A stretch of 64,000 nt of DNA from Pseudomonadota bacterium. GTDB lineage: Bacteria; Pseudomonadota; Alphaproteobacteria; Dongiales; Dongiaceae. The notes under the pieces are model-generated. The model saw only the letters and a program-made list of their open reading frames with translations. It was not told the DNA's origin and made no database searches. Of the stretch, positions 40,048 through 46,392 are shown piece after piece. The stretch is from the NCBI GenBank assembly GCA_016183985.1, contig JACPDN010000006.1, positions 558,001-622,000 on the forward strand. Reading direction: 5' to 3'. Each line of letters begins with the position of its first letter. Position 1 is the first letter of the stretch. Made by a program: the position numbers and the translations under genes.

Positions 40048-40518
40048 ATGCAGTCGCCGACAATGCCGCAACTGCAGCGCCTGCTGGCTCTGTGGCAGGC
40101 GCGCAACGGGCCCGAGCGTCTGCCGATGCGCAGCGATTTCGCCGATGAAGATTTACGCCCCTTCTTCGGCAATATCTTCATCGTCGACGTGTTGCCGCAG
40201 GCACCATATTTCAAGTTCCGTCTCTATGGCCTGTCATTGGTGAATGCCGCCAACCGGGAATGGACCGGCAAGACCATGGATGAGATTGATATCTCGCCTT
40301 ATGCACCTGACGTGTTCGACGATTATCACCGCGTGCGGGACGGCGGCCAGCCGATGGCACAGCTCCGGAGCTTCGAACCGCCGCCTGGCACCTTCACCGA
40401 TCAGTGGCGGCGCTATGAGCGGCTTTTGCTGCCGCTAGGTCAAGGCGGCCGCAAAGTGGAACAGATCATGGGCTGCTCCTACCCGCTCGCCGAAGGCAGT
40501 GTCAGCGAGCGGCCATGA
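40048..40518 (+). CDS. PAS_5-family protein, copy 2
   Basis: A 156-residue single-domain protein. PQLQRLLALWQARNG, RSDFADEDLRPFFGNIFIVDV and FKFRLYGLSLVNAAN follow the PAS_5 pattern seen in the copy at 18909-19412 (acidic dipeptide, hydrophobic strand ending in DV, F.FRL.G). It is a stand-alone sensor-like domain without output module. The start is uncertain: ATG 40048 or 40063 fit the family, and a TTG at 39958 would add 30 residues. It lies 133 bases downstream of the chemoreceptor on the same strand. Its last 17 bases overlap the stop end of the convergent MttB-like gene. Confidence 0.72.
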   Translation: MQSPTMPQLQRLLALWQARNGPERLPMRSDFADEDLRPFFGNIFIVDVLPQAPYFKFRLYGLSLVNAANREWTGKTMDEIDISPYAPDVFDDYHRVRDGGQPMAQLRSFEPPPGTFTDQWRRYERLLLPLGQGGRKVEQIMGCSYPLAEGSVSERP

Positions 40519-42028
40519 TCTCTTCCTTGCGGTGGGCGACATAGGCTTCAAGCGCGTCGAGCCGCGCCGGGTCGAGCACCGGGGCCTCGTAGCTGCGCAG
40601 TAACTCTTTCCAAATCGCGTTGGCGCGCTCCGTGCCGGTCTTCGCACCGGCCTCAGACCAAGTCTCGAAATTGCGCCAGTCAGAGAGCATCGGTTCATAA
40701 AAGGCACGATCGAAGCGCGCCAGCGTGTGCTGGGCACCGAAGAAATGTCCACCGGGACCGACTTCCTGCATCGCCTCGAACGCCAGATGCTCGTCATCGA
40801 TCTTCAGCGGATCGAGGAAGCTGCGCATCAATTGCAGCATCTCGGCATCGAGCACCAGCTTCTCGAATGACGCGGTGAGACCGCCTTCGAGCCAGCCGGC
40901 GGCGTGCTCGATGAGATGCACGCCACCCATGATGGTACTCCACAGCGACATGCCACTCTCATAAGCCGCCTGCACGTCGACGCAATTCGACGCCGTCACA
41001 TTGGAAGAACGAAACGGGATGTTGTAGCGCCGCGCCAGCTGCCCCGAGGCCAGCTGGGCCTTGGCATATTCCGGGGTGCCGAAGGCAGGCGCTCCGGTGC
41101 GCATATCGACATTCGAGGTGAAGCCGCCATACATCACCGGCGCCCCGGCCGAGACGATCTGCGAAAGCGTGATGAGTGCCAGCGCTTCCGCATTCTGCTG
41201 AGCCAGGGCGCCCGCGATGGTAACGGGACTCATGGCACCGGAAAGGGTGAAGGGTGTCATCGCCACCGGCTGGCCGGCGCGTGCCATGGTGCAAAGCCCC
41301 TCGCCCATCGGAATATCAAGGCGCAAGGGCGAATTCGAATTGACGATGGTGAGCGTCGCCGGATTCTTCTTCAGTTCTTCCCGCGATTGGCCGAGGGCGA
41401 TGCCGAGCATCTCGATCGCATCCTCGACCCGGTATCCGCCCAGGGCCCAGCACTGCCAGTTCTTGTCGCTGTAGCGGATGGCCGCGAGATAAAAATCGAG
41501 ATGACGTGTGTCCGCTGGCAGATCGGTGGGTTCGCAGGGGCAACCGCCTTCCTGATGGATGACGTTGAGCGACTGCACCACCTTGATGTAGTCGCACATG
41601 TCCTGGTAATTGCCGGCCCGGCGCCCGCGTTCGATGTCATGGGCGAAGGCCGGGCCGCCGGTCGCCGCGAAAATGAGACTTCCGTCGCCGACCTTCAAAT
41701 TCTTTGCCGGATCGCGCGCCTGCAACGTGAAGGAAGATGGCACCGTCCTGATCTTTTCCTCGATCATGGCCGGGTCGAAGCGAACCCGCTGTGTCGCCTC
41801 ATCAACGCTGGCACCAGTTGCCTTCAGCAGTGCGCGGCTCTCATCATGCATCACCTCCATGCCGATTTCAGCGAGAAGACGCAGGGAGGCATGATGAATC
41901 GATTCCAGCTCGTCGGCGGAGAGGAGCGCGATCGGTGGATAGCGGTTGGTCACCTTGGCAAAGGGCAATTGTCGCGGCGCGGAACTCACCGTCCGCCGCT
42001 CGCGCCGCTTCGTCGCGTCCCGCGTCAT
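40502..42028 (-). CDS. Trimethylamine methyltransferase (MttB) family protein, non-pyrrolysine type
   Basis: A 508-residue MttB-superfamily TIM barrel. Typical segments are LLSADELESIHHASLRLLAE, GMEVMHDESRALLKATGASV, and a C-terminal EHAAGWLEGGLTASFEKLVL. Archaeal MttB has an in-frame amber codon for pyrrolysine; here the frame is continuous, as in the large non-Pyl group that includes glycine betaine:corrinoid methyltransferase MtgB. Such enzymes move a methyl group from a quaternary amine to a corrinoid protein. No corrinoid protein or reactivase gene is in the window. It is translated 11 bases after the TMADH-like gene with a good Shine-Dalgarno (GGGGAGGGTG), so they form one operon. The substrate is probably a betaine-like amine. 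Confidence 0.87.
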   Translation of the reverse strand: MTRDATKRRERRTVSSAPRQLPFAKVTNRYPPIALLSADELESIHHASLRLLAEIGMEVMHDESRALLKATGASVDEATQRVRFDPAMIEEKIRTVPSSFTLQARDPAKNLKVGDGSLIFAATGGPAFAHDIERGRRAGNYQDMCDYIKVVQSLNVIHQEGGCPCEPTDLPADTRHLDFYLAAIRYSDKNWQCWALGGYRVEDAIEMLGIALGQSREELKKNPATLTIVNSNSPLRLDIPMGEGLCTMARAGQPVAMTPFTLSGAMSPVTIAGALAQQNAEALALITLSQIVSAGAPVMYGGFTSNVDMRTGAPAFGTPEYAKAQLASGQLARRYNIPFRSSNVTASNCVDVQAAYESGMSLWSTIMGGVHLIEHAAGWLEGGLTASFEKLVLDAEMLQLMRSFLDPLKIDDEHLAFEAMQEVGPGGHFFGAQHTLARFDRAFYEPMLSDWRNFETWSEAGAKTGTERANAIWKELLRSYEAPVLDPARLDALEAYVAHRKEEIMAAR

Positions 42029-42039
42029 GGCACCCTCCC

Positions 42040-44106
42040 CTATTTCACAAACACGAGTTCGCGCTTGAACGGGAATTGATCGGGATCGATCACCTCGCCG
42101 AACTCGCGCGCCGCCTTATGGCCGGCATAGACTGCATGGACGATGGCGCCGGGCACATCAGCATCGCCGATATTCTTGAGGGTCACGATGCCGGCTTGCG
42201 CCCGCGCTGCTTCGTCGACCTTGAGATCGATATAGAGCGCGTCGTCGGACAGGCGTGAGGTGACGCTGACCAGCGTCGTCGCCTCAATGCGCTTTTCCGT
42301 ACCCGTGTAATTACAGGCAAAGATTCCGTGATCGCCGTTCCAGGCAGCAAGGCGATGGGTCAGTACCAGCTTGACGCCCATTTTCATCAGCTTGACCTGC
42401 ACTTTGAACTGCTCGTCGGTATAGAGCGACCAGCTCGCGACATCGAGGCCGGGCGTTACGAAGGTGACGTTGCATCCGGCAAGTACCAGCTTTTCGGCGA
42501 TCACGGCGGCCATGTAATATTGGTCGTCGTCATAGACGATGACATCACCGCTGATCACCTTGCCTTTCATGACATCATCAGGTGTCACGACGTTGGCGAC
42601 GTCCATCCCCGGTACGGCGAAGTGGTTGTTATGGCCGACGCCGTCGCGTCGCCAGGTAGCGCCCGTTGCCAGGATGATGTGCTTGTAGCCGCTCTCCAAC
42701 AGGGCTGCCTTGTCCATGCGGCTTTCGCGGAAGATTTCGATATTGGGAAGTTTGGCTATCTGGCCCAGGCGATAGTCGCGCACGCGCACCCAGGCAGAAA
42801 GTGTGGGCAGTTTGGGCTCGAAGTTGAGGCGGCCGCCGAGCTCGCGCGCCGCATCGGCAAGACCTACATCATAGCCGCGCTTGGCCAGCGACATGGCGCA
42901 TTCGAGGCCGGCAGGACCGGCACCGACGACGAGGATCGCATCCTCGGCATGGCCTTTCTTCGGGTTCATGATTTCGGGATGCCAGCCGCGGCGATATTCC
43001 TCACCCATGGTCGGGTTCTGCGTGCAGCGGATCGGCACGCCGGTGTTGTTCTGGGCGCGGCAGATATTGCAGCCGATGCATTCGCGGATGTCTTCCTCGT
43101 TCCCCTCATCAATCTTCTTCGGAATGAAGGGATCAGCGATCGAGGGACGCGCCGCGCCGATGAAATCCAAGATCCCACGCTTCACCTGATCCGCCATTGT
43201 GTCGGGCGAGGTGAAACGGCCGACACCCACCACCGGCTTGGTGGTGAGCTTCTTCACGAAACCTGTGTACTTTTCCTGATGCGCTTCGGCACCGAAGCGG
43301 GAGGACATGGAATCGTTCTCGACATAGGAGATGTTGACGTCCCAGAGGTCCGGCAGTTCGGCAAGGAGGCGGATCACCGCCTCACCCTCTTCCGCCGCCT
43401 GCACGCCGCTCGGCCCCATCAACTCGTCCATGGCGAGACGCACGGCCACGGCACAGGTGTCGCCGATCGCGTCCTTGGTTTCCTCGATCATCTCCCGCAA
43501 CAGGCGTGCCCGGTTTTCAATCGGACCACCGTATTCATCGGTGCGCTGGTTCCAGCGCTTGGTGATGAACTGGAACGGCAGATAGCCGTGGCCGGCATAG
43601 ACATAGACGATATCGAAACCGGCGCGCTTGGCGCGTTTGGCGGCCTGGACCTGCCAGCGGCGCAGGTTGCGGATATCTTGCCTGTCCATGGCGCGGGTCT
43701 GCATGGGGAAGACGGCATGCTGGGTGGAGCCCGAGGGCGAGAGTGGCGTCTCTCGGCTCCAGCGGTTGGGACTGTGATTGCCGCCATGCCATAATTCGAC
43801 GCCGGCAAGTGCCCCTTGCCGTTTGATCTTCTCGGCCGTCAGAGACTGTGTTTTGACGTCGTTGTCGTCCCAGAGAGCGCATAAGCGATAGGGCGCGTCT
43901 TCCGACGACCAGTGCAGCGAACAATACTCGGTGTTGATGACACCCCAGCCGCCCTCGCCCTTGAGTTCGCGCAGACGCGAAACCGAATGCGGCAGGTCAT
44001 AGCCCATACCGGTGCAATGGGGGACTTGGTAGAAGCGGTTCTTTGCCGTCACCGGCCCGATCTTCACGGGTTCGAACAGAATGTCGTAACGAGGATTGCG
44101 CGGCAC
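42040..44106 (-). CDS. Trimethylamine/dimethylamine dehydrogenase-like iron-sulfur flavoprotein
   Basis: A 688-residue protein aligning along its length with trimethylamine dehydrogenase (TMADH). Cys31 (FYQVPHCTGMG) matches the 6-S-cysteinyl-FMN cysteine. Cys343, 346, 349 and 361 (ECIGCNICRAQNNTG, IRCTQNP) match the 4Fe-4S ligands. Residues from about 385 form the ADP/nucleotide-binding domains (VVGAGPAGLECAMSLAKRG). Of the three aromatic residues that cage trimethylamine, Tyr60 is kept (Tyr61), while Trp355 is replaced by Asn and no Trp stands where Trp264 aligns. It is therefore probably an N-demethylase for another methylated amine, for example a proline- or glycine-betaine derivative. AGGGGGAA precedes ATG 44106, with a palindrome just upstream. 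Confidence 0.9.
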   Translation of the reverse strand: MPRNPRYDILFEPVKIGPVTAKNRFYQVPHCTGMGYDLPHSVSRLRELKGEGGWGVINTEYCSLHWSSEDAPYRLCALWDDNDVKTQSLTAEKIKRQGALAGVELWHGGNHSPNRWSRETPLSPSGSTQHAVFPMQTRAMDRQDIRNLRRWQVQAAKRAKRAGFDIVYVYAGHGYLPFQFITKRWNQRTDEYGGPIENRARLLREMIEETKDAIGDTCAVAVRLAMDELMGPSGVQAAEEGEAVIRLLAELPDLWDVNISYVENDSMSSRFGAEAHQEKYTGFVKKLTTKPVVGVGRFTSPDTMADQVKRGILDFIGAARPSIADPFIPKKIDEGNEEDIRECIGCNICRAQNNTGVPIRCTQNPTMGEEYRRGWHPEIMNPKKGHAEDAILVVGAGPAGLECAMSLAKRGYDVGLADAARELGGRLNFEPKLPTLSAWVRVRDYRLGQIAKLPNIEIFRESRMDKAALLESGYKHIILATGATWRRDGVGHNNHFAVPGMDVANVVTPDDVMKGKVISGDVIVYDDDQYYMAAVIAEKLVLAGCNVTFVTPGLDVASWSLYTDEQFKVQVKLMKMGVKLVLTHRLAAWNGDHGIFACNYTGTEKRIEATTLVSVTSRLSDDALYIDLKVDEAARAQAGIVTLKNIGDADVPGAIVHAVYAGHKAAREFGEVIDPDQFPFKRELVFVK

Positions 44107-44139
44107 GGTGTTCCCCCTGGCGATCGGCTAGTCCTGGGG

Positions 44140-44155
44140 AAGCTGTATACAGCTT
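44140..44155. promoter_or_regulatory. Perfect 16-bp palindrome, candidate GntR-type operator
   Basis: AAGCTGTATACAGCTT, 34 bases upstream of the TMADH-like start. The TGTATACA core is typical of operators of GntR regulators of the FadR/VanR branch. The position, between start codon and promoter, suits a repressor. No GntR gene is in the window. Confidence 0.65.
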
Positions 44156-44166
44156 GGAAGCGCTCG

Positions 44167-45042
44167 TCAATCACGCCCGTGCGGCAGGCCCTCCATATGG
44201 CTCGCCGGGACCGATGCAAACCGCTGATCGATCACGAAAATCGCCAACGGCATGGGATCCATGGGCAGCGTGCTGACAGGCACCTGGGCGAGGCGCTGCA
44301 TGATCGGTCCCGTCGCCACCGCATAAGAGAGCCCGCGCTTGGTATCGAAGCCGGCAAATATCCCCAGGAAACTGGGCTTGCCGGCAACATCCATCAGGAT
44401 CACCGGTCCACCGCTGTCACCTATGCGGATGATGCAATCGGTGACCAGCAACCGGTTGCGATAGCTGGGAATGACATTGGGATCGTCGACGAGACCGCAA
44501 GTGGTGTGCTGCTCTAGACGCTTCATCCAACCCTGGCCATAGCCGGCGGTAAAGAGCTTGTCCCCGCGGCCGAGACGACGGACAGCTTCATCCATTGTGA
44601 GGTTTGCCGGCGGCAGCGGGGCGACGGCGGTGACCGCCGGGCGGATCTCAATCAGCGCCCAGTCCTTCATGAGTTGTTCAGGTCGCGCCAGATGACCTTC
44701 GCGGACGTCGCCACCCTCTGCCACCAGTTGCGTGCCCTGTGCCGACGGCAATTCCAGTGCGGCGCCGAAATTGGGTTGGAAACGCAGGCTGCCCGGGGGG
44801 CTTGCCGTCGCCTTCTGGTGCAGACAATGCGCCGCCGTGAGAATGAGCGTCGGCTTGACCAGAACGGCCGTACAGGATGAGGCACCCGCGACATCAAGGC
44901 GGCCGATGGCGGCCGTCCAGGGTGCACCTGCAGAAGGGGGCGTTGGCGCCGGACTTGGTGGCGGAGTGACGCGGGCCGCACAACCGGCAAGGCCGGCGGC
45001 CAGAAAGAGCAAGATAACTGTGCGCCACCTGCCGATGGTCAT
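44167..45042 (-). CDS. Trypsin-like serine protease lipoprotein, copy 1
   Basis: A 291-residue protein with a signal peptide and lipobox LAGC (Cys21), followed by a Pro-rich linker and a chymotrypsin-fold domain. The catalytic triad is readable: His in LTAAHC, Asp in MKDWALIE, Ser in GDSGGPV. The start is ATG 45042; GTG 45057 is possible. It is probably an envelope-anchored protease of unknown target. It lies 23 bases after its paralogue at 45066-45878, with the same arrangement of domains. The C-terminal 40 residues are an extension not seen in the paralogue. Confidence 0.87.
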   Translation of the reverse strand: MTIGRWRTVILLFLAAGLAGCAARVTPPPSPAPTPPSAGAPWTAAIGRLDVAGASSCTAVLVKPTLILTAAHCLHQKATASPPGSLRFQPNFGAALELPSAQGTQLVAEGGDVREGHLARPEQLMKDWALIEIRPAVTAVAPLPPANLTMDEAVRRLGRGDKLFTAGYGQGWMKRLEQHTTCGLVDDPNVIPSYRNRLLVTDCIIRIGDSGGPVILMDVAGKPSFLGIFAGFDTKRGLSYAVATGPIMQRLAQVPVSTLPMDPMPLAIFVIDQRFASVPASHMEGLPHGRD

Positions 45043-45065
45043 TGCCCGGCGCCGCACGGCTACGG

Positions 45066-45878
45066 CTACTGCGTCGATGTGGCGCTGGTGTTGCTGCCGA
45101 GCTTATCGGCGAAATAGATCGAGGCCGGGCCGAAGCTGACAAAATCTTTCTGCCCGTGATCCCCCCAGAGATTGGTCACGACACCGACGATGGCACGGTT
45201 GCCGCTGGGATCGGTCAGCATGATCGGCCCACCGGAATCGCCCGGAATGACTTCGCAACGGTTGACGATGATGTCATGCGTGACCTTCAGCATTTTGTCG
45301 GCGTCGGTCACCAGATGGCAATTGTCCCTGACCTGGAGCCGCTTGCCGGAAAAGGCACCATAGACGCCATACCCGGCATGGGACAGCTTGGCCCCTTTCT
45401 TGATGCGCGCATCGATGCCATCGACGTTTAGCTTCTCCACCTTCATCGGTTCGAGATAGGTGATGGCCGGCGAGATGCGCAAGGCTGCCCAATCGTCTTT
45501 CGGCTCGCCCCGCAACTTGCCGCTGGCGTCGGATTTGATGGGCCAGCCCATATCGATGACGGCCGTGACCTTGACCGGCTTCAGCCTTTCGCGGCCGACA
45601 TCGAGCGCTGGCGTGAATTGGAAGTCGGTGATGCGCGCCTCATTTCCCCGCCCATAGAGACAATGCGATGCCGTCAGGATCACATCCGGCCCCACAAGAG
45701 TGGCCGAGCAGGAGCCGTCTTCCGCATCAAGCCGCCCGATCGCTGCACTCCAGGGCAGCGGCCCGCTGGGCTTGTCCACGGTCCTGACCGGTGTTGTGCA
45801 AGCCGCAACCAGAGCGGCCAGCATCAAGAAACAAGCGGTCTTGGTGACCGGCAGATATGTCGGAAACAAGCGCGGCAT
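45066..45878 (-). CDS. Trypsin-like serine protease lipoprotein, copy 2
   Basis: A 270-residue protein with signal peptide, lipobox LVAAC (Cys27) and chymotrypsin-fold domain: His in LTASHC, Asp in KDDWAALRI, Ser in PGDSGGPI. PWSAAIGRLDAEDGSCSATL parallels PWTAAIGRLDVAGASSCTAVL in the neighbour, which shows tandem duplication. AGAGGG is found at suitable spacing before ATG 45878. Both copies keep an intact triad. The substrate is unknown. The order on the minus strand is nsrR, this gene, then copy 1. Confidence 0.88.
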   Translation of the reverse strand: MPRLFPTYLPVTKTACFLMLAALVAACTTPVRTVDKPSGPLPWSAAIGRLDAEDGSCSATLVGPDVILTASHCLYGRGNEARITDFQFTPALDVGRERLKPVKVTAVIDMGWPIKSDASGKLRGEPKDDWAALRISPAITYLEPMKVEKLNVDGIDARIKKGAKLSHAGYGVYGAFSGKRLQVRDNCHLVTDADKMLKVTHDIIVNRCEVIPGDSGGPIMLTDPSGNRAIVGVVTNLWGDHGQKDFVSFGPASIYFADKLGSNTSATSTQ

Positions 45879-45921: not shown

Positions 45922-46392
45922 TCACGAAGCGGTCGGACGGCGACGCCCGAGGTCGCTATCCAGCATCGGCAGCAACGCCGCAAGATCGCGACGATTGCTG
46001 ATGATGTCGGCCAGCGAATAGCGGTCGAGAACGCCCATGAAGGCTTCGAGCGCCTCGGCCAAGGCACCGTTGAGCCCGCAGACAGGGGCAATCGGACAGG
46101 TGTTGTGGACCACGTCGAAACACTCGACGATGGTGAGGTTGCCCTCAGTCAGCCGGACGGTGGCGCCAATATTGATCTCCGATGGGCGTCGGCTGAGGCG
46201 CATGCCGCCACCGCGGCCGCGAACGGTGTCAATGACGCCAAGGCGCCCTAATTTATGGACGACCTTTGTCAGGTGGCTTTCGGAAATGCCATAGGCCGCC
46301 GCAATTTCCTCAATCGTGGCAAGCGATCCATCGCGTAAACCCAAATATATCAGGGTACGCAGGGAGTAGTCCGAGAACTGGGTCAATTGCAT
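45922..46392 (-). CDS. nsrR: Rrf2-family regulator, NsrR-like (nitric oxide sensor)
   Basis: A 156-residue winged-helix regulator. MQLTQFSDYSLRTLIYLGLR and SESHLTKVVHKLGRLG are the Rrf2 DNA-binding segments. Cys91, Cys99 and Cys105 (CFDVVHNTCPIAPVCGL) have the C-x7-C-x5-C spacing of iron-sulfur NsrR. NsrR is a nitric-oxide-sensitive repressor of genes for NO detoxification and anaerobic respiration. No such target (hmp, norB, dnrN/ytfE) is adjacent. An inverted repeat at 46493-46518 lies upstream, between this gene and pyrF. ATG 46392 has a weak Shine-Dalgarno. Confidence 0.87.
   Translation of the reverse strand: MQLTQFSDYSLRTLIYLGLRDGSLATIEEIAAAYGISESHLTKVVHKLGRLGVIDTVRGRGGGMRLSRRPSEINIGATVRLTEGNLTIVECFDVVHNTCPIAPVCGLNGALAEALEAFMGVLDRYSLADIISNRRDLAALLPMLDSDLGRRRPTAS

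Follow-up and report, generated by a model that had tools for sequence, protein, structure and literature searches.

The window analysed here, bases 558001-622000 of contig C13 (G000:C13) of a 4.65-Mb genome, is 64 kb long and carries on its minus strand a gene encoding a flavoprotein of the trimethylamine dehydrogenase (TMADH)/histamine dehydrogenase (HADH) family (42040-44106; 688 aa; GTG start; ribosome-binding site (RBS) GGGGA), followed by a gene encoding a non-pyrrolysine MttB homologue (40502-42028; 508 aa; ATG start; RBS GGGGAGG). Open reading frames and RBSs confirm an earlier note on this DNA in that both genes are real and lie 11 bases apart on one strand; of the span given there, 40502-44155, the start holds, but the end lies ~50 bases past the likely flavoprotein start (44106). 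The gap (42029-42039, minus strand) contains the MttB RBS GGGGAGG and is, judged from the sequence, too small for a promoter or terminator. Predicted promoters and terminators showed no excess over shuffled sequence, and no NCBIfam model scored over its cut-off for the flavoprotein or the MttB homologue. Directly upstream of the flavoprotein gene, on the same strand, lie two tandem genes encoding trypsin-like lipoproteins (44167-45057 and 45066-45878), and the same-strand run is headed by a gene encoding an Rrf2-family regulator (45922-46392, minus strand), which occupies the same place in G012. Synteny of the lipoprotein genes is conserved within Dongiaceae only, where the tandem (44167-45878) is kept upstream of the MttB gene in several genomes, even those without the flavoprotein gene. 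The lipoprotein genes and the regulator gene are only possible members of the module.

The flavoprotein comprises Oxidored_FMN and Pyr_redox_2 Pfam domains and has the features of the TMADH/HADH superfamily: the FMN cysteine (C31, corresponding to TMADH C30), four Fe-S cysteines (C343/C346/C349/C361), and the Tyr/His/Asp catalytic triad (Y170/H173/D265). The predicted fold matches 6l6j, 2tmd, and 3k30 with Z of 41.9-43.1 over 645-661 residues; the AlphaFold model has low confidence at residues 31-37 and 343-365 and is too uncertain for pocket geometry. Alignment bears out the earlier residue readings (Cys31, the four Fe-S cysteines, and Tyr61 as the only residue kept from the TMADH cage): in place of TMADH Tyr60, Trp264, and Trp355 the flavoprotein has Y61, V262, and N353, the last assigned to the Trp355/356 position across a one-residue alignment gap. 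Its description as TMADH-like is correct for the family but not for closeness, since with the flavoprotein as query histamine dehydrogenase and HisD outrank TMADH (3k30, 717 bits; 6l6j, 679; 6de6, 674; TMADH 1djn, 570). TMADH (1djn, 2tmd) shares with the window flavoprotein the fold, cofactor residues, Tyr60, Tyr174, and the triad; in contrast, the window protein, 42% identical, lacks Trp264 and Trp355 and is linked to an MttB gene. Histamine dehydrogenases (3k30, 6de6) are 48-51% identical to it and share the Cys-FMN, the Fe-S cysteines, and the Tyr/His/Asp triad, whereas Gln65, Ile74, Glu79, Trp267, and Asp358 of 3k30 are replaced by Tyr, Asp, Leu, Val, and Asn, respectively. The proposed histamine site consists of Gln65, Trp267, and Asp358 (PMC10180351), and the window flavoprotein thus has Tyr, Val, and Asn in that site. 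Trimethylamine and histamine were both rejected as substrates because the site residues are not kept. A separate protein encoded in the same genome (L027 9228-11276; G000:C9:29224-31272) is 75% identical to the Rhizobium histamine dehydrogenase 6de6.

The MttB homologue matches the Pfam MTTB domain (PF06253) with 637 bits over residues 7-504, and its frame is open, with no in-frame stop and no amber codon, in agreement with its earlier assignment as an MttB-family methyltransferase without an amber codon; comparison with solved structures places it in the same family. It shares the MttB fold without pyrrolysine with MtgB of the MtgBCD systems (D. hafniense; Ruegeria pomeroyi, PMC12478193; 2qne/9yce; homologue 4yyc) and is probably vitamin-B12-dependent. 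Among the residues predicted to contact the substrate in MtgB, Tyr94, Asn199, Arg309, and His345 (PMC6855144), the last three are kept, but Tyr94 is replaced by Gly, as is Phe353, which may leave room for a larger compound. It also differs from MtgB in being paired with a flavoprotein of the TMADH/HADH type, joined in relatives by an oligopeptide ABC importer and a CocE hydrolase. Glycine betaine, named earlier as a candidate for the shared compound, is disfavoured and probably not the substrate of the window MttB, given the loss of Tyr94 throughout its clade and the presence in the genome of other MttB proteins, two of them of the Tyr94 type, of which one groups with 4yyc; the Tyr94-type paralogues, 38-43% identical to the window protein, appear to be better candidates for this substrate. 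One MttB with the MtgB Tyr94 is encoded ~1.4 kb before the window start (L018 13022-16638; G000:C13:553022-556638) and is closely followed by another FMN/Fe-S flavoprotein, of the 2,4-dienoyl-CoA reductase type, forming a parallel pair in the same genome. In Mesorhizobium, an mttB gene is salt-induced, yet its knockout has no salt phenotype (PMC4302635); the clade of that MttB may differ from that of the window protein.

The pairing is conserved. Among 17 Dongiaceae genomes, 11 carry the adjacent pair, the matched stretches being 15-190 bases apart; in the other six the adjacent pair is absent, and G005, G008, G009, and G011 retain the MttB orthologue without it. These 17 genomes hold 65 flavoproteins of the TMADH/HADH family, and the 11 located beside an MttB of the window clade are in each case the best-matching flavoprotein of the genome; for the remaining 54 the same search found no MttB within 10 kb. 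Beyond the family, 80 loci chosen from the genome_contigs set by similarity to the window MttB included 51 linked loci, 15 unlinked despite at least 3 kb of readable upstream sequence, and 14 too short to tell; linkage was found in 14 of the 15 loci with MttB identity of at least 62%. The closest named relative in this set is a Dongia MAG (MttB 87% identical), and linked loci include those of Rhizobiaceae, Mesorhizobium, Rhodobacteraceae, Aestuariivirga, and Rhodospirillales. In an even sample of the class (114 genomes; MttB threshold E <= 1e-175; linkage distance 1.5 kb), an MttB was found in only nine genomes, two of them Dongiaceae. None of the 12 non-Dongiaceae MttB proteins of this sample (52-59% identity), whose nearest tree neighbours are also unlinked, had a flavoprotein gene within 1.5 kb, and the link therefore belongs to certain MttB clades, not to all. 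Conserved adjacency in related genomes, on which the earlier reading depended, was thus borne out. No paper describing the pairing was found in the open-access literature, where a report in a subscription journal could be missed.

The surroundings of the Dongiaceae pair, housekeeping genes and the trypsin-like lipoprotein genes, are uninformative on the substrate. Their stability, with pyrF and trp genes next to the pair at a constant place in the chromosome, would be expected if the neighbourhood were mainly inherited gene order, in which case the MttB homologue might not act on quaternary amines and the flavoprotein could be a general amine dehydrogenase. We consider this very unlikely, as the pair occurs in other surroundings in Rhizobiaceae, Mesorhizobium, and Rhodobacteraceae, and the MttB homologue retains three residues of the predicted MtgB pocket (Asn, Arg, and His).

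That the flavoprotein and the MttB homologue share a task is likely because the MttB has been re-paired with partners from a different flavoprotein clade. The flavoprotein tree contains four MttB-linked clades, of which I (with the window protein), II, and III group together (support 0.95) and share Tyr60 and Tyr174 with TMADH, while clade IV is separate. The nearest MttB proteins outside Dongiaceae, those of Rhizobiaceae, are 78-82% identical to the window MttB, but they are paired with a flavoprotein of clade IV that shares 48% identity with that of the window and is encoded at the opposite end of the operon. This operon comprises a divergent BetI-type TetR regulator gene, followed by genes encoding the flavoprotein, an MFS protein, a CocE/NonD hydrolase, four oligopeptide-ABC components, SBP_bac_5, and MttB (gene order read in L195-L197, with other loci placed by coordinates); L199 contains only the flavoprotein, MFS, and MttB genes. 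A close MttB orthologue with a flavoprotein of a different clade means that the pairing was rebuilt. Over the MttB tree the partner clade changes at least nine times, compared with a minimum of three for four labels and an average of 28 for shuffled labels; support is weak inside some groups of this tree, but a node with support of 0.99 underlies the Rhizobiaceae case. Functional coupling of the two enzymes is well supported, given an adjacency that is conserved and arose on more than one occasion.

Pocket residues follow linkage as well. Tyr174 and Leu175 are present in all 53 flavoproteins counted as linked and Trp264 in none, whereas all 25 counted members of the unlinked clade that includes the histamine dehydrogenases and HisD have Trp264; a few flavoproteins labelled unlinked belong to clade I or IV, their flanks having been read over a short distance. 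Arg350, beside the third Fe-S cysteine, is invariant in clades I-III (35 of 35), its place being taken mostly by Val in the histamine dehydrogenase clade, and hints at an anionic group on the substrate. In linked clades II and IV, Ala replaces Cys30, which the window protein (clade I) keeps, and covalent FMN is therefore not needed for the linked role.

These residues also bear on whether the flavoprotein might be an amine oxidase and not an N-demethylase, cutting the MttB product at the C-N bond to the carbon chain and giving dimethylamine or methylamine and an aldehyde. HisD (6l6j), named a 6-hydroxypseudooxynicotine amine oxidase, is the top fold match (Z 43.1 over 645 residues, with TMADH and histamine dehydrogenase tied) and the second-best solved relative by sequence, and the histamine dehydrogenases of this family catalyse oxidative deamination; moreover, Cys30 is missing from HisD and from linked clades II and IV alike. 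However, HisD keeps Trp264 and groups in the unlinked clade, the window flavoprotein being opposite to it in both respects and in Cys30, and the absence of Trp264 from the linked clades together with the Tyr60 and Tyr174 that clades I-III have in common with TMADH makes such an oxidase role rather unlikely. Parallel action, with the two co-regulated enzymes serving different members of a methylated-amine mixture, seems less probable still. With six MttB genes and four of the TMADH/HADH type, the genome has mostly unlinked copies, and some Dongiaceae keep the window-type MttB without an adjacent flavoprotein, as would suit parallel action, but the pairing is found with flavoproteins of more than one clade, and the pocket type tracks linkage.

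Many loci of relatives also encode an oligopeptide-type ABC importer and a CocE/NonD hydrolase, and for this reason the substrate probably arrives with an ester or amide bond. Of the 51 linked genome_contigs loci, 22 contain CocE/NonD genes and 35 contain any of CocE, DppB, and SBP5; for the 29 unlinked loci the counts are 4 and 5, respectively, a difference that is inflated by some shorter unlinked loci. The only CocE gene of the window genome is unlinked to the pair and lies on contig C11 in an SBP5-Dpp operon beside a BKACE-type gene; this operon-like run (L194 394-10946; G000:C11) encodes the BKACE-type enzyme, a GlxA-like regulator, SBP_bac_5, an oligopeptide ABC importer, and CocE/NonD. 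Clade III loci carry, along with CocE, genes encoding a Rieske oxygenase, HpaB, RidA, and a 2-hydroxyacid dehydrogenase, and because of these additional enzymes substrates may differ between clades. In two loci (L134 1344-11178 and L165 1683-11656) the pair lies amid CocE, Rieske oxygenase, 2-hydroxyacid dehydrogenase, HpaB, and RidA genes, runs that could serve to oxidise an aromatic or heterocyclic compound.

The earlier note had found no MttB partner corrinoid protein locally and had left the methyl acceptor open. The first statement is true of the 64-kb window, which contains no corrinoid gene, but not of the genome, whose single B12-binding_2 match is an MtgC-like protein encoded ~20 kb past the window end, scoring under NCBIfam cut-offs. 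The genome search answers the second in part, since a gene set of the MtgBCD type is present: in addition to the MtgC-like protein, the genome encodes one RACo-type activator, on another contig and clustered with a methyl-THF:corrinoid methyltransferase (PRK07535 over cut-off) and MetF-type genes. Genes for ETF were also found in trans to the pair. Sharing of one corrinoid protein by several non-pyrrolysine MttB proteins is known from Eubacterium and has been proposed for marine bacteria (PMC12478193), and with helpers in trans the missing local corrinoid gene is therefore no obstacle. The cluster that holds the activator, the methyltransferase, MetF-type, and other C1 genes (L025 9503-15319; G000:C2) is likely a common methyl sink.

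Adjacency, pocket type, re-pairing, and neighbouring genes support a model in which the two enzymes act one after the other on a single quaternary amine, and we give about an even chance to their catalysing successive reactions in the degradation of one quaternary N-methyl compound. In this model, the MttB-like enzyme would transfer one methyl from the quaternary nitrogen to Co(I) of the shared MtgC-like corrinoid protein, from which it would pass to tetrahydrofolate via the methyltransferase encoded beside the RACo activator. The remaining tertiary amine would be oxidised by the flavoprotein through 6-S-cysteinyl FMN and [4Fe-4S], and then probably ETF, and in the simplest outcome a second methyl would leave as formaldehyde. 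We infer that the substrate is shared, that the steps occur in this order, that the flavoprotein demethylates, and, from Arg350, that the substrate has an anionic group; accordingly, of the two successive demethylations proposed earlier, functional coupling is well supported by the conserved and repeatedly assembled adjacency, and the flavoprotein's demethylation keeps the standing of a proposal. The suggestion that a dimethylglycine-dehydrogenase-type gene (1-1611) acts on the product found no support, the gene being 40 kb from the pair. More tentatively, and with less than even confidence, we propose a hitherto undescribed aerobic alphaproteobacterial pathway of oligopeptide-type ABC uptake, CocE/NonD hydrolysis of a quaternary ester or amide, B12-dependent demethylation, and flavoprotein oxidation, whose enzymes would have been re-paired repeatedly.

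New in this analysis are the conserved pairing, the four linked clades devoid of Trp264, the re-pairing, the enrichment of CocE and oligopeptide ABC genes, and the corrinoid helpers in trans. An aerobic bacterium may have as many as seven MttB-type genes, most of them with unassigned substrates (PMC12478193); for one large MttB clade, the conserved partner, importer, and hydrolase narrow the substrate search to quaternary esters and amides. If true, the proposed pathway would add another B12-dependent step to carbon and nitrogen cycling by soil- and plant-associated Alphaproteobacteria.

In a Mesorhizobium locus (L135 91-1740), a gene encoding a DUF1989 domain fused to GcvT-type (aminomethyltransferase) domains lies upstream of an amino-acid permease gene and the flavoprotein-MttB pair; a folate-binding partner at this locus would fit formaldehyde capture.
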